The position numbers and the translations under genes were made by a program. A stretch of DNA of 38,166 bases from a virus. A model generated the notes under the pieces. It was not told the DNA's origin. It ran no database searches and saw only the letters and a program-made list of their open reading frames with translations. Below, piece after piece: positions 2,774 to 18,608 of this stretch. The stretch is taken from positions 1 to 38,166 of IMG/VR virus record IMGVR_UViG_3300044678_001290. One strand, 5' to 3'. The first letter of the stretch is position 1. Each line of letters starts with the position of its first letter.

Positions 2774-2942
2774 GGCCGGTGTCCGGAATGTAGTGTTCCA
2801 GTTCGTGAATGCGGGCAATGTTGAGGAGGGCGATAGAGCCCTTCTCCAAGCGCACTAGGGCGTTGTAAAGATCGGTGGGGTTCTCCGAATGGATGCAGTC
2901 CCCGAGCATGTGGTTGATTAACTGGTTAATTTTTGGTTTCAT
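2763..2942 (-). CDS. Hypothetical small protein, 59 residues
   Basis: A small open frame in the interval between the SWIM-like gene and the second HNH gene. It begins MKPKINQLINHMLGDCIH and is largely helical (LVRLEKGSIALLNIARIHELEHY). Its ATG (2942-2940) overlaps the TGA of the HNH gene in the ATGA pattern used throughout this operon, and its end overlaps the next start. There is no membrane segment or known motif. The amphipathic helices suggest a small DNA- or protein-binding partner, but this is inference. Confidence 0.65.
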   Translation of the reverse strand: MKPKINQLINHMLGDCIHSENPTDLYNALVRLEKGSIALLNIARIHELEHYIPDTGHEV

Positions 2943-3256
2943 AATAGGTAGCCTTGTTCCCTAGCCCAGCTAGGGTGGTTGTGTATGTTGGTGTGGCAGG
3001 AACGACAGGTTTGCAGCCATGTCGTTGTTTCGTTGGTCTTAGAGCCTCGGCCTTCCTTGTGGTGGATGTCCGTGGCTGGTTGGTTGCATATGGCGCAGAA
3101 GGGCGACTCCTTCAGAAATATGCGCCTCAGATTGGTGTATTGCTTGTTCCTTGCCGATTGCTTGGAGCTTACTCGTTTAAGCCCCTTGCTCTTCTTCTTC
3201 TTCGGCAAGAAGTAGTTTACGCTACTCGCGGGTCGTAATTGTTCTGGCGTCTCCAT
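2939..3256 (-). CDS. HNH endonuclease, 105 residues
   Basis: A compact HNH nuclease with CAIC knuckle (C54, C57), the catalytic/zinc pair in TDIHHKEGR (H65, H66) and CRSCHTNIHNHP (C84, C87, H88, H92). This is the arrangement of small phage HNH proteins that act in recombination or packaging. The N-terminus is very basic (PKKKKSKGLKRVSSKQSAR), as expected for DNA contact. The first ATG is at 3256; a GTG 15 bases upstream (3271) is an alternative. Either start overlaps the end of the PD-(D/E)XK nuclease gene by 40-55 bases. Having a PD-(D/E)XK nuclease and an HNH nuclease adjacent suggests a joint role in DNA metabolism or host-DNA breakdown. Confidence 0.85.
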   Translation of the reverse strand: METPEQLRPASSVNYFLPKKKKSKGLKRVSSKQSARNKQYTNLRRIFLKESPFCAICNQPATDIHHKEGRGSKTNETTTWLQTCRSCHTNIHNHPSWAREQGYLL

Positions 3257-4026
3257 AAACGTGTGAGACACAGGAAGTCTTTGTAGGACTCCATTAACGC
3301 TTCTCGGTCATACTTCACTACGTCAATGCGGCCCGGTTCTGTGGTCGAGATATAGACATTGATGCAGATAGCATCGGTGAAGAAGCTGTCACAAAAATGT
3401 GCCATCCAGTAGGCCGCAAGTTGCATGGGATGGGTTTCACCGGGAAAGATGGGTTCTTCCGGCTTTGTCCGCTTGCTCTTCCAGTCGAGGATTCCTTTGC
3501 CGTAGGGACTCTCAAACACTACGTCCGTAGTCCCCGCGTAGCCTTGCGTAGCGTTTACGAGAACGGTCTCAGCCTTGACTACCTTAATGCTCAGGCTTTC
3601 CAGCTTAGAGAAGGCTGGTTCCACTAGCTCAGACAGCATACAACTACGCTCCTCAGTCAGAGCTACCTCATGGTCGAAGTAGTCTTGTCCCCTCGTCTTG
3701 CCCTCAATGGCCGCGTGAATCGTTGTCCCAAGATCGGCTGCGCCCATGCCGTCCTGCTTGGACTTCTCCAGCATATTCCTAACGTAGTCCCCCATCTCCT
3801 CACCGGGGTGCGGAGGCATCTGGAAGCAAGTTTCCGCCACCTTGCTCATCTTCCAGCGTTCTAGGCCGGGAGAGGCGAGCATCTTCGTGTAGGCTGTAAC
3901 GCTAGGCAGGAGCTTCTGCTCCCTCGCGTCCTTTAAGTTGGTGGGACGGGTGGGGTTCTTGGCCCCCTTCTTTGTGGCCTGCGTGTGGCAAGGCTTACCG
4001 TCTAAGGTGTAATAGTGTTCGCTCAT
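3217..4026 (-). CDS. PD-(D/E)XK nuclease (Cas4/RecB-like exonuclease), 269 residues
   Basis: Shows the full motif set of the RecB-like PD-(D/E)XK nucleases: GTTIH (H104), E153 in KAETVL, D168 in GTTDVVFE, D181-W-K183 in GILDWKSKR, and the Q202-x3-Y motif in HPMQLAAYW. Such enzymes are magnesium-dependent DNA exonucleases; in phages they process ends for recombination, often with an annealing or ssDNA-binding protein. The OB-fold candidate lies two genes upstream and would be a natural partner. No cysteine cluster of the Cas4/AddB iron-sulphur type is evident. The start overlaps the stop of the 58-codon gene (ATGA). Confidence 0.88.
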   Translation of the reverse strand: MSEHYYTLDGKPCHTQATKKGAKNPTRPTNLKDAREQKLLPSVTAYTKMLASPGLERWKMSKVAETCFQMPPHPGEEMGDYVRNMLEKSKQDGMGAADLGTTIHAAIEGKTRGQDYFDHEVALTEERSCMLSELVEPAFSKLESLSIKVVKAETVLVNATQGYAGTTDVVFESPYGKGILDWKSKRTKPEEPIFPGETHPMQLAAYWMAHFCDSFFTDAICINVYISTTEPGRIDVVKYDREALMESYKDFLCLTRLWRRQNNYDPRVA

Positions 4027-7652: not shown

Positions 7653-7901
7653 TTAAATGAGGCGAAAAACCCCCTTTAAGGGGTTTCCCGCATTTTTGTT
7701 TCTTGTTTGTGACGCCGCTACGCAATTCGCGGCTAGGTAATAAGCTGCCAAATATCCGACAGAGAAGATTCCATAGGCCGTTAGGCCAATGTCTGAGAGT
7801 CCCGTTTGCACCACCCCAAAAGAATCAGGGCTTCGGTATGCGCTTAGCTGCCAAATGATCCTCCAGAGGGAGTTCCATACCGCCCTCCCTCGAATCTTCA
7901 A
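7653..7901 (-). CDS. Doubtful small membrane protein frame
   Basis: An open frame with only TTG or GTG starts (TTG at 7901, GTG in the middle). It contains one hydrophobic stretch (LTAYGIFSVGYLAAYYLAAN) that could cross the membrane, and ends GNPLKGVFRLI inside the terminator hairpin at 7661-7686. No ribosome binding site stands out for a GTG start. The region also contains a GAGGGAG-N12-CTCCCTC inverted repeat (7866-7891). It may be a small membrane protein or non-coding DNA; I keep it only as a low-confidence entry because it is otherwise the only content of 7690-8018. Confidence 0.25.
   Translation of the reverse strand: MKIRGRAVWNSLWRIIWQLSAYRSPDSFGVVQTGLSDIGLTAYGIFSVGYLAAYYLAANCVAASQTRNKNAGNPLKGVFRLI
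7661..7686 (-). terminator. Intrinsic terminator or attenuator upstream of the HTH cluster
   Basis: Read on the minus strand, AAACCCC - TTAAA - GGGGGTTTTT: a 7-bp GC/AT stem with a five-base loop and a U-run. It lies just ahead of the ATG at 7650 and would separate the upstream leftward genes from the HTH/helicase block. Because no strong promoter is evident between it and the ATG, it may work as an attenuator or be bypassed by antitermination. Confidence 0.7.
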
Positions 7902-8018
7902 AGTTGGGGAACGGATTTTCGCGCTGTCCTAGCAAAGCTGAGTGTGTCGCCGTTTAAGGCGTAAGGTGCAACATGGCTTATACGTCCCCTTAACGGTACG
8001 TCTTACTTTCAGGGCAGT
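7902..8018. other. Intergenic stretch without a recognised gene
   Basis: Between the candidate small RNA terminator and the doubtful membrane frame I see no open frame with a good start. A TATAAG hexamer occurs on the minus strand near 7980 but lacks a -35 element. A leftward promoter for the HTH/helicase block might lie here or in 7690-7900, but I cannot point to one. Confidence 0.4.
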
Positions 8019-8056
8019 AAAAAACCCCTTGGCAGTACAAGTACCAAGGGGCTTTT
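8019..8056 (-). terminator. Strong intrinsic terminator
   Basis: On the minus strand CCCCTTGG - TACTTGTACTG - CCAAGGGG followed by TTTTTT: an 8-bp GC-rich perfect stem with a six-base U-run. It ends transcription of the 8132-8464 gene and of the candidate small RNA. On the plus strand it has only a four-base T-run, so leftward termination is favoured. Confidence 0.85.
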
Positions 8057-8124
8057 CTGAAGATTCCCTCCGTCGGCAGGCGGGAAAAATGAAATGTCCG
8101 TAGGCTCTTGTACAGCTACCTAAC
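8019..8124 (-). ncRNA. Candidate small RNA (about 105 nt)
   Basis: Bounded upstream by a perfect extended -10 promoter (8131-8139) and downstream by a strong intrinsic terminator (8019-8056), with no open frame of note between. The transcript would contain a TTCCC/GGGAA hairpin around GCCTGCCGACGGA (about 8067-8089) and then the terminator stem. Such promoter-short spacer-terminator units are typical of bacterial and phage small RNAs. Alternatively it is just the 3' end of the upstream operon plus its terminator. Targets unknown. Confidence 0.4.
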
Positions 8125-8130
8125 GAGGGG

Positions 8131-8139
8131 ATTATACCA
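8131..8139 (-). promoter_or_regulatory. Extended -10 promoter (TGGTATAAT)
   Basis: A perfect TATAAT preceded by TGG, the extended -10 form that can work without a good -35. It overlaps the last codons and stop of the 8132-8464 gene. A perfect TTGACA lies only 12 bases upstream (8149-8154), too close for normal sigma-70 spacing. Start would be at about 8124. Confidence 0.45.
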
Positions 8140-8464
8140 TAGGTTCAGTGTCAAGTGGTTTGTAGGGCACTTTCGCGCTTTGTTTGTAAATGGCGTCCAT
8201 CGACGATTCTACGTCTGCAATCTCTGTTGGGGTTAAGGGACTGAATGCCTCCTTCTCAAATTGTTCTGCCTCTTGAATGCAGCGTTCAATTTCCGTTTCT
8301 ACCCATTCGTTAAGCGCGGCCTTATCCGTGATCGTCACCCCCGGTATCACCCCGTAGGGCAGGCAATAGCGTAAAAGGGCCTGCAGTTGGCCAACGTGGT
8401 AGGGGAAGCAGATTTTGCGGGTGCCAATTTCTGCTCTTAATGGTGTTTCGTTTTCTGTTTTCAT
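8132..8464 (-). CDS. Hypothetical protein, 110 residues
   Basis: A soluble protein beginning MKTENETPLRAEIGTRKICF with a beta-rich N-terminal 40 residues, then two acidic helices (ALNEWVETEIERCIQEAEQF and PTEIADVESSMDAIYKQSAK). I do not recognise it. It follows the Ala-repeat gene by five bases, and its leader reads AAAACACATG like two other genes nearby, with no Shine-Dalgarno. An extended -10 promoter is embedded in its 3' end, and a strong terminator follows 75 bases downstream of its stop. Confidence 0.7.
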   Translation of the reverse strand: MKTENETPLRAEIGTRKICFPYHVGQLQALLRYCLPYGVIPGVTITDKAALNEWVETEIERCIQEAEQFEKEAFSPLTPTEIADVESSMDAIYKQSAKVPYKPLDTEPMV

Positions 8465-8469
8465 GTGTT

Positions 8470-8958
8470 TTATTGGGTGAAAGGGTTTTTAACCATGGCG
8501 CGAAATTGGGTAGCCTGAGCCTTATCCGCAGCATACCCCGCAGCAGCCCCCGCATCCCGCGCAGCATACCACGCAGCAGCCCCCGCAGCAGCCCCCGCAT
8601 CCCGCGCAGCATACCACGCAGCATCCCCCGCAGCAGCCAATTCAGCCGCGCTTGCTTTGCCATTTGCAAATCGTTCAGCCACGTCAAGCGCGAAAAGTGA
8701 TCGCGGGTCAGTTATTAAGTCCCCTGTTTTTCGGCCATCGGGCAACGGCGTGTTTCGAGCACACCAGACCGCGAACAACCTAAGTGTTCGGTCGTCCGGT
8801 CGTCCGGTTTTGTCGGTGATCCATAAGAGCCAATCAACTTTTGGGCAATTGTCCCAAACCTCGCTCATGGATTGATATTTAAGGGCGAATTTGCGCCCCT
8901 CGTTGCAAGCGTTTTTTGCGTCGCAGAATTGTTTCGGTGTCATTTCAGTTAGTTTCAT
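8470..8958 (-). CDS. Phage protein with Ala-rich 15-residue repeats, 162 residues
   Basis: The start was placed at the ATG at 8958 (MKLTEMTPKQFCDAKNAC) rather than 9042, which would overlap the upstream small membrane gene. The N-terminal 100 residues carry the pattern EVWDNCPKVDWLLWITDK, LRLFAVWCARNTPLPDGR and DPRSLFALDVAERFANG, which I associate with a widespread phage and bacterial family of unknown function. The C-terminus is a helical Ala-rich repeat (AAWYAARDAGAAAG twice, with partial copies). In that family the repeat number varies between relatives. The role is unknown. It may be soluble and form an extended helix. Confidence 0.75.
   Translation of the reverse strand: MKLTEMTPKQFCDAKNACNEGRKFALKYQSMSEVWDNCPKVDWLLWITDKTGRPDDRTLRLFAVWCARNTPLPDGRKTGDLITDPRSLFALDVAERFANGKASAAELAAAGDAAWYAARDAGAAAGAAAWYAARDAGAAAGYAADKAQATQFRAMVKNPFTQ
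8543..8623. repeat. 36-bp perfect direct repeat, period 45 bp
   Basis: The segments 8543-8578 and 8588-8623 are identical, offset by 45 bp (15 codons), and are flanked by partial copies from about 8526 to 8640. They encode the AAWYAARDAGAAAG repeat. Because the period is a multiple of three, slippage or recombination would change repeat number without breaking the frame. Confidence 0.9.
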
Positions 8959-8960
8959 GT

Positions 8961-9019
8961 GTTTTTTTGTTATATCTAAGCGATTTTTGTTATATTTGAC
9001 TAAGTTTCTGCAGTTTTTG
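8961..9019. repeat. Three ATAACAAAAA-type repeats in the leader of the Ala-repeat gene
   Basis: On the minus strand the short intergenic stretch ahead of the ATG at 8958 contains TGTAACAAAAA, ATATAACAAAAA and ATATAACAAAAA, the first overlapping the stop of the upstream gene. They may be a protein binding site or simply an A-rich unstructured translation leader; there is no Shine-Dalgarno. Confidence 0.5.
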
Positions 9020-9139
9020 TTACAATTCCCAACTGTCGTCATCGTCTTTGCGCCAAATTTGCCAGAGGACGATTAGACCGAGCAATTGGAGGATAATTAG
9101 AACGGCCAAACCTAGGCCGATGAGGTTGATAAGTGTCAT
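9020..9139 (-). CDS. Single-span membrane protein, 39 residues
   Basis: Too short for most gene callers. It reads MTLINLIGLG, then LAVLIILQLLGLIVLWQIW, then a charged tail RKDDDDSWEL: one strongly hydrophobic segment of about 25 residues and a cytoplasmic-type charged C-terminus. It begins eight bases after the stop of the upstream gene. It could be a spanin-like, antiholin or pinholin-type peptide, or a membrane anchor; nothing beyond topology supports any of these. The secreted lysozyme gene lies about 500 bases upstream on the same strand, so a lysis role is possible. Confidence 0.65.
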   Translation of the reverse strand: MTLINLIGLGLAVLIILQLLGLIVLWQIWRKDDDDSWEL

Positions 9140-9613: not shown

Positions 9614-9985
9614 TTATAGGTGTTTTTTGATTTTGTTCCAATAAGCAATTGTTGCCCGTTTTTTGTTTCCCGTAGGCCCGCCGTTCCAAATTCGGGCTTT
9701 TACCTCGTCAGATTGGCCCTTGCCATAGTGTTCAGTGTAAAGCCGAAACATTTGCCGTGATTTTTCGGGGTCGAACCTATCATTTGGGGTGTATTTTGTC
9801 CCCGCTATTCGGTTAACGTCCTTTACGGTTATCGCCCATATCTGAGCTATTCCCGCCGCACGTCCGCCATCACCTACGGCAAGCGGGTTTCCGTTGCTTT
9901 CGACACGGCAAACAGCCTCCCATAGCCCCGCCCTTGCGGGCAAGGCAGACACGGCAAGGCATAGGATGAAAAGGGCGCGTTTCAT
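9614..9985 (-). CDS. Secreted lysozyme/transglycosylase-like endolysin, 123 residues
   Basis: The ATG at 9985 starts a classical signal peptide (MKRALFILCLAVSALPARA, cleavage after ARA), directly followed by a lysozyme-like domain. It has the catalytic glutamate in CRVESNGNP (E29), GIAQIW (45-50), DRFDPEKSRQMFRLY and the WNGGP motif (100-104). This is the SLT/goose-lysozyme-like fold of phage muramidases. Export by Sec or a signal-anchor mechanism would place it in the periplasm, so the host is probably Gram-negative. It overlaps the upstream gene by four bases, confirming the start. It is far from the holin-like genes (25.1-25.7 kb) and in the leftward arm, which is unusual for a lysis enzyme. 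Confidence 0.88.
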   Translation of the reverse strand: MKRALFILCLAVSALPARAGLWEAVCRVESNGNPLAVGDGGRAAGIAQIWAITVKDVNRIAGTKYTPNDRFDPEKSRQMFRLYTEHYGKGQSDEVKARIWNGGPTGNKKRATIAYWNKIKKHL

Positions 9986-10236
9986 GCGACCTCCTCCCAA
10001 AGATTGGGCATGGATTGATGCACGGCCCCGGCATCGGTCTTTACCTGCACGCCGTAACCATATTTCCCCTTCTCGCATGAAACCACCGTTCCTATGGTTG
10101 CCTTTCGCTTCTCATATTCATCCAAATAGGCTGTCTTAAGTTGAGGGCTACCGGCACGCAACCAACTATCGCGGGCAGGCCGCAAGCTATATTCGCTAGG
10201 CGTTACCCGTTGGCCGGGTTGAAAGGGTGCGCTCAT
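9982..10236 (-). CDS. Hypothetical protein, 84 residues
   Basis: A soluble protein starting MSAPFQPGQRVTPSEYSLRP. The C-terminal half alternates basic and hydrophobic residues (KATIGTVVSCEKGKYGYGVQ, VKTDAGAVHQSMPNLWEEV), as in small SH3-like or KOW-type beta barrels. I do not recognise a defined family. It overlaps its neighbours by four bases on each side (upstream 95-residue gene, downstream lysozyme). Confidence 0.7.
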   Translation of the reverse strand: MSAPFQPGQRVTPSEYSLRPARDSWLRAGSPQLKTAYLDEYEKRKATIGTVVSCEKGKYGYGVQVKTDAGAVHQSMPNLWEEVA

Positions 10237-10520
10237 GCGTTGCCCTTCGCTTTTCGCGTTTCACATCCCGCCAAATATGCGCGCATATTACCCTCCGCCG
10301 CCTTTTTAGAAATGTATGTTGCCCAAATCGGTGTTGTGATTCCGCCATCCTCATTTGCAATTCTATGCACGCATACCCCGCCGTAACCTTGTGAGAGATG
10401 AAAGTTTCCGATGTTTGCAGTTAGTCCGGTTTCCGTGCGCGTGTAAGGCGTCGCAGGCGAACCCGTGGCGATGTTTATCAATTCGCAGAGATTTTTTAAT
10501 GTGTTGATCGTCGTGCTCAT
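10233..10520 (-). CDS. Phage hypothetical protein (GNFHLSQGYGG type), 95 residues
   Basis: Contains LCELINIATGSPATPYTRTE, then ANIGNFHLSQGYGGVCVHRI, then NEDGGITTP. Proteins with this N-I-G-N-(Y/F)-H-L-S...YGGV pattern recur in many phage early regions without known function. The rest is a helical C-terminus (KKAAEGNMRAYLAGCETRKA). It is a soluble, cytoplasmic protein. ATGA overlaps occur at both ends, so it is translated together with its neighbours. Confidence 0.75.
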   Translation of the reverse strand: MSTTINTLKNLCELINIATGSPATPYTRTETGLTANIGNFHLSQGYGGVCVHRIANEDGGITTPIWATYISKKAAEGNMRAYLAGCETRKAKGNA

Positions 10521-10837
10521 TTCACGCCCTCCGCTTTGGCTATGGCTTTAGCCGCATCTTCCGCGCTACGCTTAAAACTGTCTTGCATAGGCCCGGCAAT
10601 TTTTGCCGCCATACGCATCAAAAACGCGGCATCCTCTAAAGCTTCAAGCAACGCCGGCGCGGCTGCAATCAAACGGGCGTTTGCGTTGGCTTGCGGTCCC
10701 GTGCATATTGCAACATTCCAAGGGCGCATCAACTCCGGGATTTCTCCAAAAGAATGAACGCTCGAAAGGGAGGAGTTATTTTTGCAAATGTCGGCAAACC
10801 AGTTGCCCGGCGTGTGTGTGTGTGTGTGTGTGTTCAT
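10517..10837 (-). CDS. Phage protein with NARLIAAAPALLEAL motif, 106 residues
   Basis: The middle carries ANANARLIAAAPALLEALED, a signature of a very common small phage family of unknown function. The N-terminus is MNTHTHTHTPGNWFADICKN, encoded by a perfect CA/TG dinucleotide run. The last 40 residues are helical and Ala-rich. A change in the dinucleotide run by one unit would shift the frame after the first codons, so expression could be phase-variable. The downstream gene overlaps its stop by four bases. Upstream, 65 bases without a gene separate it from the ArdC gene. Confidence 0.8.
   Translation of the reverse strand: MNTHTHTHTPGNWFADICKNNSSLSSVHSFGEIPELMRPWNVAICTGPQANANARLIAAAPALLEALEDAAFLMRMAAKIAGPMQDSFKRSAEDAAKAIAKAEGVK
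10811..10832. repeat. Dinucleotide (TG/CA) microsatellite at the start of a gene
   Basis: An uninterrupted run of about ten TG units on the plus strand (CA in the coding sense) directly after the start codon of the 10517-10837 gene, encoding the His-Thr repeat. Such runs are prone to slipped-strand mispairing. Confidence 0.9.
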
Positions 10838-10902: not shown

Positions 10903-11775
10903 TCAATCGGCGTGCGTTTCCATCTTTCCCAAAATGAAATCGGCGGCCCGTTGTCCCTGCGCGGCGGCGTGAATTACTAGCTTGGCATCCTCTTTCAATT
11001 GCTTTAGCCATCCCTGAATATAAGAGGCGGAAGCGGGCAAGGTGTTGTCAATCCCCGAAACAGCGCAAAGGAACGCCGCGCCCATCTCCGCGACTAGTTC
11101 CTCTTTCGCGTAGGTTTCCCCGCCAAACGCCGCAACCTCTGCAACCCCTTTACGGTTTAACCGACTTTCGTGCCCCGTTGCGTGCGCTAATTCGTGGAAA
11201 AGTGTGGAATAGTAGTTTCCGGACGTGTCAAACGTTTCGGCTTTTGGCATTTGCACGCTATCTGTTGACGGGCGATAATATGCTCTGTCGCCGCCGTGTG
11301 CCAATTTGGGAGCCCTTGGCATATTGGAAACAATCTTTTCCGCCTCTGCTACGGGGTTAAAGGTTGCCCCTTCAATCTTTTCTGCCGCCCATGCTATGCC
11401 GTCGCACTGTTCAACGTTGAAAACCGTGTAATACTTCAGGAAGGGGATTTTCTTCGGCTTGCCGGTAGCGTCCTTTTCTGTTTTGCTATCAACCCAATTC
11501 CAAAAGACTACCGGCGTCCCCTTTTCCCCTTTCCGCACGCTTCCCTTCAATTCGGCGGCTTGTTTGTAAGTGAGCCAAAACGGGCACGAATAAGGGGAAA
11601 AGGATAGCAGAAACCAATTTATGCCCCGGTAGGATTTGCGGCTTCCAAAGTTTGCAGGGTTGCCGCCGTTTTGCGCTTTCCAAGGTTTGCGCCAAGGAAC
11701 CGTCCCCGCTTCTAATTGGGAAACGATGCGTTCCGTGATGATGCTATAAACGTCTTTTTTTTCTTCCGTTGTCAT
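10903..11775 (-). CDS. ardC: ArdC-like antirestriction protein with metallopeptidase domain, 290 residues
   Basis: Residues 1-125 match the N-terminal ssDNA-binding domain of ArdC/TraC-type proteins (YSIITERIVSQLEAGTVPWR, PWKAQNGGNPANFGSRKSYR, KGEKGTPVVFWNWV). Residues 160-280 form a zinc metallopeptidase-like domain with HELAHATGH (194-202) and a downstream YAKEELVAEMGAAFL helix supplying the third ligand. ArdC proteins protect incoming DNA from host restriction. The start at 11775 (MTTEEKKD) follows a GGGAAA-type ribosome site and is preferred to an ATG at 11901, which would read through a repeat element. Its place near the start of the leftward arm suits immediate early expression on entry. 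Confidence 0.9.
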   Translation of the reverse strand: MTTEEKKDVYSIITERIVSQLEAGTVPWRKPWKAQNGGNPANFGSRKSYRGINWFLLSFSPYSCPFWLTYKQAAELKGSVRKGEKGTPVVFWNWVDSKTEKDATGKPKKIPFLKYYTVFNVEQCDGIAWAAEKIEGATFNPVAEAEKIVSNMPRAPKLAHGGDRAYYRPSTDSVQMPKAETFDTSGNYYSTLFHELAHATGHESRLNRKGVAEVAAFGGETYAKEELVAEMGAAFLCAVSGIDNTLPASASYIQGWLKQLKEDAKLVIHAAAQGQRAADFILGKMETHAD

Positions 11776-11834
11776 TGTGTTTTTCCCTAGTCTTTTTCTA
11801 GCGTTGCCTTCCCCGGACGTCATGCCCGGGCACT

Positions 11835-11888
11835 CCAAAACCCCGCCGAGTGTCGGCAGGGTTGGGGGTTGGGAGTTGCGGGGTGTTA
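11835..11888. repeat. Repeated 3'-end hairpin/G-run element, copy A
   Basis: A stretch of about 54 bp nearly identical to 12497-12548. On the minus strand it begins with the TAA of the 11886 gene, runs TAACACCCCGCAA, then CCCTGCCGA-CAC-TCGGCGGGG, a 9-bp stem followed by TTTT, so it may terminate transcription. On the plus strand it reads GGG-TT-GGGGG-TT-GGG-N6-GGGG, a G-quadruplex pattern. Confidence 0.8.
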
Positions 11889-12140
11889 AGCTTTCAGCCA
11901 ATTAGTGAGCGAGCGAGAGACGAAAAGCGTGCGGCGATTTCCCTTTGTCTCCCATTCTGTCGAGATATTGTAGTAATTAGGGTTGCACGGCGGCATTAAG
12001 CCGACGTCCCAACTTTTGGTGAGCTTTCTCAACGCGCTGTTGGCCTGTTGGCAAATGGCAATTGCGTTGTTAGCTAGCAAATCGCGTTTCGCCGTGCGAT
12101 ATTGGCGGCGCAATAAGTGATAGATTTCCCGGGTGTTCAT
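11886..12140 (-). CDS. Hypothetical protein, 84 residues
   Basis: The ATG at 12140 (MNTREIYHLLRRQYRTAKRD) follows the leader AACAGAAAAGGAAACAA, with AGGAAA as ribosome site; a longer frame to 12308 reads through the upstream gene and is rejected. The N-terminal half is a basic helix bundle (LLRRQYRTAKRDLLANNAIA, ICQQANSALRKLTKSW), the rest a short beta-rich part with KGNRRTLFVSRSLTNWLKA. Family not recognised. Its stop is built into repeat copy A. It is one of three small genes with near-identical leaders, probably a co-regulated early group. Confidence 0.7.
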   Translation of the reverse strand: MNTREIYHLLRRQYRTAKRDLLANNAIAICQQANSALRKLTKSWDVGLMPPCNPNYYNISTEWETKGNRRTLFVSRSLTNWLKA

Positions 12141-16026: not shown

Positions 16027-16219
16027 TATTACATTGGACCGTAAGTGGCAGGACGAACAGATTGATCGTCTGTTGGGTTTTGAAATTTTGCAACGAACAC
16101 TTCACGCTGAATACCAACCAATTGAAGCTGCTGTCCTAGCGGACAAGGTAGCAATTGATAAGGGTGCAGCCTACCGCATCATTCGCGCTATTGGACAAAA
16201 CCTAAATGGAAAACGATAA
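16007..16219 (+). CDS. Hypothetical small protein with HTH-like region, 70 residues
   Basis: Start placed at the ATG at 16007 (MKCLEIDITLDRKWQDEQID), which overlaps the preceding gene by 20 bases; the earlier in-frame ATG at 15962 would overlap it by more than 60. The second half (QPIEAAVLADKVAIDKGAAY, then RIIRAIGQNLNGKR) has HTH-like spacing. It overlaps the portal start by 14 bases. It probably acts with the adjacent 128-residue protein, but there is no direct evidence. Confidence 0.6.
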   Translation: MKCLEIDITLDRKWQDEQIDRLLGFEILQRTLHAEYQPIEAAVLADKVAIDKGAAYRIIRAIGQNLNGKR

Positions 16220-18317
16220 TCAAGAAGCACTTATTTACGTTCAGGATAAGCCAAATGTTATGGCTATCCGTAATGCGTATGAACGCACTACCACTGACCT
16301 CAATTTCTATTTTGACCAGTGTGCTGACGCCTATGATAATCGGCGCAACTTGTGGGCAGGGAAGTCCGAGGACTTACGCAAGGGTGGAAGCGATGCCTTC
16401 CCGTGGAAGGGTGCATCCGATCAGGAGGCCCATGTCATTAACGAGCGCATCAATCGCTATGTGGCGATGTTCATGTCTTCGCTTAACCGCGCCAACATTC
16501 GCGCCTATCCGGTTGAGTCTGGCGACATTGGCCGCGCCCGCGTTACTAGTGCTTTCTTAAAGTGGATGGTGGCTAATTATATTCCTCAGTTCAAACGGCA
16601 GATGGAACTTGGGGCCAACTACCTCCTTGAGCGTGGCATCATGATTACCTATGTGGGCTGGCAGAAGGAAGATCGCATCTTCAAGCAGAAGCTAACACTA
16701 GATCAGCTCCAACAGGTTAGTCCCGATTTGGTTAAAGCCATCTTGGAGAAAAAGTCCGACGACCAACTGGTTGAGCTTTTGAAAGGTCAATTCAACGGAA
16801 TGACTGACAAGAAAGCCAAGCGTGCTTTGAATGATTTACGAAAGACTGGTAATGCTGAGTTCCCCATCATTCGGCGCAGCGTAGATTGCCCAATGGTTCA
16901 GGCCATTGCTCCCGACGGAGATGTTTTGTTTCCGTCTTACACCACCGACCCACAGAAAGTTCCCTATTGCTTCTGGCGTGTGTTGATGAGCGCCCAGCAG
17001 CTCAAGAACAAAATTGCAACAGAGGGTTGGGATGAGAGTTGGGTTGATTATGTCATTGAGAATTGCGGCGAAGAAGGCGACCCAATCAACAACAATAACA
17101 ACAACACCAATTTCACCTACAAATCCACGACGTATGACGCCAGTGAGTTGTTTGAAGTGATTTATTGCTACCAACGCTTAGTCGATGAGGACAACGCGGA
17201 GGGTATCTATTGCACCGTTTTCCATAGAAACGTAATTGGTAAGCAAAACGTAGAAGATTATGCAAAGCATGAGCTTTTAAACGGCTACGAAGACTACCCA
17301 TTTGTCGTAACAAAGATTAGCGAGGACAACAAACGTCTCTACGATCTTCAAAGTTTTGCTGATTTGCTCAAGGGAATCCAGTGGCAAACAAAGGTGGAGC
17401 GCGATAGCCGCACAGACCGCAACTCGCTTGCTACCCTTCCGTGGATTGAACATCCAATGGGCTTCCCGCCTAGCGATATTCGTCCCGGTGGCCTCCTTCC
17501 CTATCGTCGCCAAGGGGAGATTCGTTACGGCCCAACGCCACAATACAATCCCGGCTCGGTGGAGATGGAAAACACTCTGCTTACGCAAGCCGACAAGCTA
17601 ATTGGTTTGGATGTTGGCAATCCCTTGTCCACAATTCAGCAGCAGTATTTCGTGGATAAGTTCCTGACTCACGTTAGGGACGTTCTGCGCTTGTCATACA
17701 AGTGCTATCAACGTTTTGGCCCAGATCAAGTGTTCTTCCGCGTAACAGGCGTTTCCGACCCTCAAAAGTTTAGCAAGGGCGACCCTAACGAAAACTTTGA
17801 CATAATCATCAACTACGACGTTCTGCACAACGACCCAGACAACGTGGAAACACAACTTGGTCAGTTTGTTCAATTGATGCAGCTTGATAGAAATGGCCGC
17901 ATTGACGTTGATGCCTTGCTTGAAATTAGCGGCTCAGCCATCAATCCAGTCATTGCGGACGCTATCCTGCGTCCACGCGAGCAAGCCCAAGAGCAAGTGG
18001 TCAAACAGGTCACAGATGACTTGTCTAAGATTTACGCTGGCATTGAGGTGGGCGCACGGCCTAATGGTGCTCAAATCGCTATGCAGGTTCTTCAGCAATA
18101 CAGCCAGCAGCCTGACGTTATGCAGCGTTTGCAGCAGGATAAGGCATTTGCGGCACGCTTCCAGAAGTATGCCCAGCAATACCAGTTCCAAATGCAGCAA
18201 ACTCAGAACGCTGAGATTGGTCGCATTGGCACAGCTCCCGCCGAAATGGGCGGAATGCAAACACAGGGTATGCAGCAAGCTCCTTCGGGTATGGCCCCCG
18301 GCCCACAACAATACTAA
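16206..18317 (+). CDS. Portal protein, 703 residues
   Basis: A large dodecameric-portal-type protein. The N-terminal region NRRNLWAGKSEDLRKGGSDA, FPWKGASDQEAHVINERINR is typical of podovirus and SU10-like portals. The length (703) is within the usual range for these. A Gln-rich C-terminal tail (from about residue 620, with QQYSQQPDVMQRLQQDKAFA and MQQTQNAEIG) would line the crown or barrel. It forms the DNA entry ring and the head-tail joint. It follows the terminase block and precedes scaffold and capsid genes, the usual order. Confidence 0.9.
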   Translation: MENDNQEALIYVQDKPNVMAIRNAYERTTTDLNFYFDQCADAYDNRRNLWAGKSEDLRKGGSDAFPWKGASDQEAHVINERINRYVAMFMSSLNRANIRAYPVESGDIGRARVTSAFLKWMVANYIPQFKRQMELGANYLLERGIMITYVGWQKEDRIFKQKLTLDQLQQVSPDLVKAILEKKSDDQLVELLKGQFNGMTDKKAKRALNDLRKTGNAEFPIIRRSVDCPMVQAIAPDGDVLFPSYTTDPQKVPYCFWRVLMSAQQLKNKIATEGWDESWVDYVIENCGEEGDPINNNNNNTNFTYKSTTYDASELFEVIYCYQRLVDEDNAEGIYCTVFHRNVIGKQNVEDYAKHELLNGYEDYPFVVTKISEDNKRLYDLQSFADLLKGIQWQTKVERDSRTDRNSLATLPWIEHPMGFPPSDIRPGGLLPYRRQGEIRYGPTPQYNPGSVEMENTLLTQADKLIGLDVGNPLSTIQQQYFVDKFLTHVRDVLRLSYKCYQRFGPDQVFFRVTGVSDPQKFSKGDPNENFDIIINYDVLHNDPDNVETQLGQFVQLMQLDRNGRIDVDALLEISGSAINPVIADAILRPREQAQEQVVKQVTDDLSKIYAGIEVGARPNGAQIAMQVLQQYSQQPDVMQRLQQDKAFAARFQKYAQQYQFQMQQTQNAEIGRIGTAPAEMGGMQTQGMQQAPSGMAPGPQQY

Positions 18318-18533: not shown

Positions 18534-18608
18534 TGGAGCCCCCGATAGGGATTGAACCTACGACAGCCAGTTTACAAAACTGGTGCTCTACCACTGAGCT
18601 ACAAGGGC
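18534..18608 (-). tRNA. tRNA-Thr (anticodon UGU)
   Basis: A full cloverleaf on the minus strand, 75 nt. Acceptor GCCCTTG/CGGGGGC, D arm GCTC/GAGC, anticodon stem CCAGT/ACTGG with loop TTTGTAA (anticodon TGT, reading ACA), five-base variable loop CTGTC, T arm GTAGG-TTCAATC-CCTAT, discriminator T and an encoded CCA. It runs against the structural genes around it, and its CCA abuts the stop codon of the 18321-18533 gene. No clear minus-strand promoter was seen in the 100 bases upstream. Confidence 0.95.

Follow-up and report, generated by a model that had tools for sequence, protein, structure and literature searches.

The window analysed here, the whole 38,166-nucleotide stretch of the IMG/VR virus record IMGVR_UViG_3300044678_001290, carries a predicted structured RNA on the minus strand. 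It belongs to the block of early genes and precedes, in the same orientation, a gene for a DnaB-type helicase. A gene for a lytic transglycosylase (SLT) domain protein (9614-10078, minus) also belongs to the early block, and nearly all relatives have a homologue of it upstream of the RNA. The same block encodes an ArdC-type antirestriction protein with a zincin-like domain (10903-11901, minus). A 190-aa gene (8470-9042, minus; PHROG 18326) contains an alanine-rich repeat, AAWYAARDAGAAAG, and the matching stretch is repeated in L020, one of the relatives. Elsewhere in the window, a 703-aa protein encoded directly 3′ of the terminase gene (16206-18317, plus) has no match in PHROGs or Pfam, and the only tRNA gene, tRNA-Thr (TGT; 18534-18608, minus), sits amid plus-strand structural genes. 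The features of the RNA and its flanks are as follows.

8131-8154, minus: predicted extended -10 promoter, TTGAC-N10-TGN-TANNAT
8124 to about 7713, minus: predicted structured non-coding RNA, about 410-420 nt
8101-8124, minus: hairpin H1 with a 3-nt bulge; its loop forms the 5′ side of a kissing helix
8064-8086, minus: hairpin H2, TTCCC/GGGAA
8019-8057, minus: hairpin H3, terminator-like
8011-8028, minus: alternative hairpin formed by the 3′ strand of H3 (GGGG) and a downstream CCC, with the U-tract in its loop
7983-8000, minus: core hairpin CGU.CC/GG.ACG with a bulged A
7988-7992 with 7962-7966, minus: pseudoknot 1, made by the core hairpin loop
7948-7961, minus: hairpin P4, CGCC/GGCG, supported by the core pair count
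7928-7942, minus: hairpin P5, CTCAGC/GCTAGG, supported by alignment
7840-7924, minus: domain closed by helix PX (7924-7921/7843-7840)
7914-7909/7885-7880, minus: helix PI, inside the PX domain
7764-7899, minus: helix PY (7899-7892/7771-7764), pseudoknot 2, between the PI loop and a distal strand
7846-7856, minus: direct repeat ATTTGGCAGCT, copy 1
7802-7836, minus: PZ, CCG...CGG closing a covarying hairpin (7830-7827/7817-7814)
7743-7753, minus: direct repeat ATTTGGCAGCT, copy 2
7714-7733, minus: 3′ hairpin GCCGC/GCGGC, with one CG to GC double change
7665-7683, minus: second, downstream terminator, found in some relatives only

Homologues were found with the upstream gene and then with DNA patterns taken from the RNA. 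They come only from IMG/VR, through patterns derived from the family itself, and the about 44 distinct examples obtained therefore underestimate its diversity. All belong to uncultivated phages of two deeply diverged groups. Subfamily A includes about 30 members besides the window; the members of subfamily B are L024, L033, L044, L057, L061, L065, L069, L078 and L086-L091. One 14.8-kb contig, L028, carries two diverged copies of the RNA together with early genes on opposite strands (2847-3281, minus; 10281-10717, plus), as the result of either a chimeric assembly or a real inverted duplication.

A sequence-only reading of the window had proposed a small RNA of about 105 nt between an extended -10 promoter and a strong terminator, with an internal hairpin, and was silent on strand. 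All three elements are found, on the minus strand. The promoter sequence TGGTATAAT (8139-8131) overlaps the TAA stop codon (8134-8132) of a 110-aa gene (8132-8464). On its own, this 9-mer is unremarkable, with one occurrence in the window against 0.65 expected. The longer pattern TTGAC-N10-TGN-TANNAT also occurs a single time, and in none of 100 shuffles. Moreover, it recurs once per RNA, at a fixed distance from the first hairpin, in 30 distinct subfamily-A sequences. This conservation backs the proposal that the RNA has its own extended -10 promoter at 8131-8139, with a predicted start near 8124. The reading had also pointed to the location of this promoter inside the 3′ end of a gene. The overlap is real, but the placement is incidental: among relatives the upstream gene differs or has its end at another place whereas the promoter is constant, and for the same reason the promoter is not a by-product of coding sequence. 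In subfamily B, the sequences of most members reveal a conserved TTGATGTCAA element located 16 nt from a weak -10. Specifically, subfamily A has TTGACA 12 nt from TATAAT, whereas L065, L069, L033 and other subfamily-B members have TTGATG 16 nt from the weak -10; the -35 region may overlap with a regulator site. A consensus promoter and terminator scanner listed neither the promoter nor the terminator, since its -35 and loop-size rules exclude them, and thus the case for both elements rests on comparison.

The predicted fold of 111 nt at this site has an energy of -39.7 kcal/mol (z = -3.0). The proposed TTCCC/GGGAA hairpin is present (8086-8082 with 8068-8064), although its sequence is highly variable between relatives. 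A 7-bp kissing helix joins the H1 loop GTACAAG (8113-8107) to the H3 loop CTTGTAC (8041-8035). There are 18 distinct loop pairs among the homologues, and each loop matches its own partner at 7 of 7 positions (one G-U included), whereas mismatched combinations of loops average 3.4 of 7 and reach 7 in only 3 of 306 cases. Double changes occur in six of the eight column pairs of the subfamily-A alignment (A1), the eighth of which is confined to four RNAs whose loop is longer, and in five of seven in the subfamily-B alignment (A3). Such covariation is consistent with either an intramolecular or an intermolecular helix, and alone cannot distinguish between them.

The stem of H3 is formed by 8 bp between CCCCTTGG (8051-8044) and CCAAGGGG (8032-8025), and in the window it leads directly into six U residues (8024-8019), exactly as the sequence-only reading had described it. 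Relatives keep the stem and a U-rich tract, but in many of them the tract is poor as a terminator and its junction with the stem is often imperfect (GGGGCACTTTTTT in several subfamily-A members, GGGCTTCTTTCTTTT in subfamily B). The alternative hairpin is weak in the window, at about 4-5 bp, and in subfamily A it has only about 4 bp. It is clear in subfamily B, where the 3′ strand of H3 can pair instead with a strand just past the U-tract over 6-9 bp, such that the U-tract is looped out. Both pairings are possible in 10 of 10 subfamily-B examples, and in L087 the shared strand has changed and both of its partners have changed to match. L044 (5886-6379) carries about 85 nt of extra, structured sequence between the core and H3, placed precisely where the alternative hairpin has its loop and closed by an 8-bp stem of its own, TTTGTCTG/CAGACAAA. 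These observations suggest a possible conformational switch between H3 and the alternative hairpin. It cannot work as a classical antiterminator, since the U-tract has already been transcribed before the second partner exists.

Downstream of H3 lies the best-conserved portion of the RNA. The core has the consensus CGY.CC/GG.RCG with a bulged A, a loop UNNGG that pairs with CCNNA downstream to form pseudoknot 1, and then CGCC/GGCG. In 21 distinct sequences drawn from subfamilies A and B, pairing holds in 100% of cells, with double changes in 7 of 14 pairs; when the core partners are slid by one column, pairing drops below 50%. The sequence-only reading had named covariation in related phages as a check, and this covariation proves to be strong: the scores are 0.395 for subfamily A (0.110 when shuffled), 0.386 for subfamily B (0.138) and 0.419 for the core (0.117), none of 500 shuffles reaches any of the three, and sliding by one to three columns collapses them. 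In the fully paired helices of these three alignments, G-U pairs occur repeatedly and A-C pairs never do, which argues that the conserved element is a minus-strand RNA rather than a DNA element. Among the long-range helices, PX is represented by 11 and PI by 16 distinct complementary strand pairs, PY by 9 distinct strand pairs and PZ by 13, but these strands were picked by hand and their support is weaker than that for the kissing helix or the core. PI is the exception, since it was also counted on the subfamily-B alignment, where double changes are seen in 4 of 6 pairs. PX is only 82% paired on the subfamily-A alignment because the variants are imperfectly aligned there.

The two copies of ATTTGGCAGCT are located about 103 nt apart and change together in 14 diverse homologues. 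For example, CGGGGAGC is present twice in L030, and ATTAAGCCACT twice in one of the L028 copies. Several candidate partners for the repeats were found within the RNA, none of which is consistent across homologues.

How far, then, does the RNA extend? Conserved structure runs past 8019 to about 7713. Among 25 subfamily-A sequences, conservation averaged over 25-base blocks is 0.54-0.89 from 8126 to about 7702, and its peak (8001-7977) lies past position 8019, where the small RNA was proposed to end. The roughly 300 nt located 3′ of H3 equal the 5′ part in conservation and covariation in every homologue that spans far enough. On this comparative evidence, the proposed small RNA of 105 bases forms the front part of a predicted non-coding RNA of about 420 bases that is intricately folded, and the notion of a self-contained transcript is not supported because structure and covariation go on for some 300 nt past the hairpin, to about 7714. 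The length would be up to about 460 nt if the 3′ end is the terminator at 7683-7665. No terminator at the 3′ end is conserved among relatives, and thus the RNA may simply be the leader of the genes that follow. Inspection of the homologue alignments revealed no conserved helix that closes the 5′ and 3′ ends.

No open reading frame is kept across this region, since relatives differ in both the frame and the length of their stop-free runs. An 82-aa ORF (7901-7653) and a 53-aa plus-strand ORF (7942-8103) were considered as coding candidates and set aside as incidental because their frames are not conserved across homologues. The window and 12 homologous loci have no match in Rfam 15 at gathering thresholds, and permissive thresholds gave nothing credible either. 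Likewise, blastn searches with the window RNA and one subfamily-B RNA gave no match in the phage records (50,697) or the plasmid records (72,556), and pattern scans of 84,980 genomes yielded no relative, but only five chance matches in unrelated sequence. Phage C75C1, which has the closest terminase found in phage records, lacks the core. No description of the RNA was found among open-licence papers searched with general terms, which is weak evidence of absence. Judged by these searches, the RNA represents a new family of large, structured RNAs in phages that is absent from Rfam. The downstream DnaB-type helicase in subfamily B is only 29-35% identical, and yet it again follows the RNA on the same strand. 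The RNA has been retained while the phage proteins diverged, and it is under strong selection in both of the deeply diverged groups.

Several known RNAs resemble this one in part. GOLLD and ROOL are large RNAs carried by phages, with no known function, and assemble into multimers via kissing loops and other contacts (PMC12286853). The new RNA is likewise large, ornate and phage-borne, with pseudoknots and kissing loops. However, their covariance models match neither the window nor the 12 loci searched with Rfam 15, their lengths are 659 to over 800 nt versus about 410 nt, and they often reside near tRNA islands, whereas the new RNA lies beside replication genes with the sole tRNA 10 kb away. 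By these comparisons, it is similar to GOLLD and ROOL in style but a member of neither and unrelated to them. The phi29 pRNA also has two complementary loops that covary between phages, a shared feature that is no proof of membership. That RNA works with the phi29 packaging ATPase, whereas the window phage has an ordinary large terminase, and the new RNA is in the early block and has no Rfam match to pRNA.

We consider it reasonably likely that the locus encodes a phage structured RNA of about 410 nt, of which the originally proposed interval is the 5′ module, that undergoes partial termination and acts in trans early in infection. The RNA would be transcribed early from its own promoter, and RNA polymerase would partly terminate at the U-tract to release a short product of about 105 nt, and otherwise would read on to the full-length product. 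Thereafter, the 3′ strand of H3 could swap to its downstream partner, while the kissing loops might hold the 5′ module in place or else connect separate RNA molecules. The full RNA, folded and either alone or with a protein, would act in trans. We favor trans action for two reasons: the 300 nt that follow the hairpin form an elaborate fold, and the identity of the next gene changes between relatives.

The main rival is a cis-acting leader, since the 3′ end is without a terminator in many relatives. In this arrangement, the RNA would be the 5′ UTR of the downstream early operon (small genes and the DnaB-type helicase), H3 would serve as an attenuator, and the alternative hairpin and kissing loops would set read-through. 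Its constant position upstream of the next genes on the same strand, even where the helicase is only distantly similar, is consistent with such a role, as is the fact that, in a good share of the relatives, no terminator separates the RNA from the start codon that follows. Attenuators, riboswitches and put-type antitermination RNAs similarly have a terminator-like hairpin that shares a strand with an alternative hairpin near the 5′ end of an early transcript, as is observed in all 10 subfamily-B examples, although the alternative is weak in subfamily A. If this were true, then why is so much structure placed after the attenuator? The elaborate 300 nt exceed what an attenuator needs, and the alternative partner lies past the U-tract, too late for classical antitermination. 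Furthermore, the next gene is C5 in most relatives, but C18 in L027 and C59/C60 in L033/L044, and no Rfam riboswitch matches the RNA. We regard a leader as possible but rather unlikely.

An arrangement of two RNAs, in which a 105-nt small RNA ends at H3 and is followed by a separate structured RNA, seems improbable. The kissing helix does lie entirely within 8124-8019, and the H3 stem of the window directly meets U6, but the short gap between H3 and the core has no promoter-like sequence, the alternative hairpin bridges the two parts, and these adjoin in the about 44 distinct homologues and are never apart where the sequence spans both. A replication primer or origin RNA similar to ColE1 RNA II with RNA I-like kissing loops is very improbable. 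The likeness is that the RNA is long, has 5′ hairpins and kissing loops, and precedes replication genes. Against it, ColE1 uses an antisense transcript pair whereas both loops here are on one strand of one transcript, there is no Rfam match, and the locus shows no GC-skew break that would mark an origin.

Large structured RNAs are rare, and often prove to be catalysts, scaffolds or unusual regulators. Beyond the trans-acting structured RNA that we favor, a more speculative and unlikely prospect is that this is a third phage-borne ornate RNA in which the kissing loops, variable yet matched, link copies of the RNA into a multimer that recognises itself, and in which the repeats at 7856-7846 and 7753-7743 change together because they share a binding partner. 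The 18 natural kissing-loop pairs, which are swappable, offer a clean experimental handle. The RNA would enlarge the small set of ornate phage RNAs by an independent case, and would make it possible to address the function of such RNAs in phages that are small, at about 38-39 kb.
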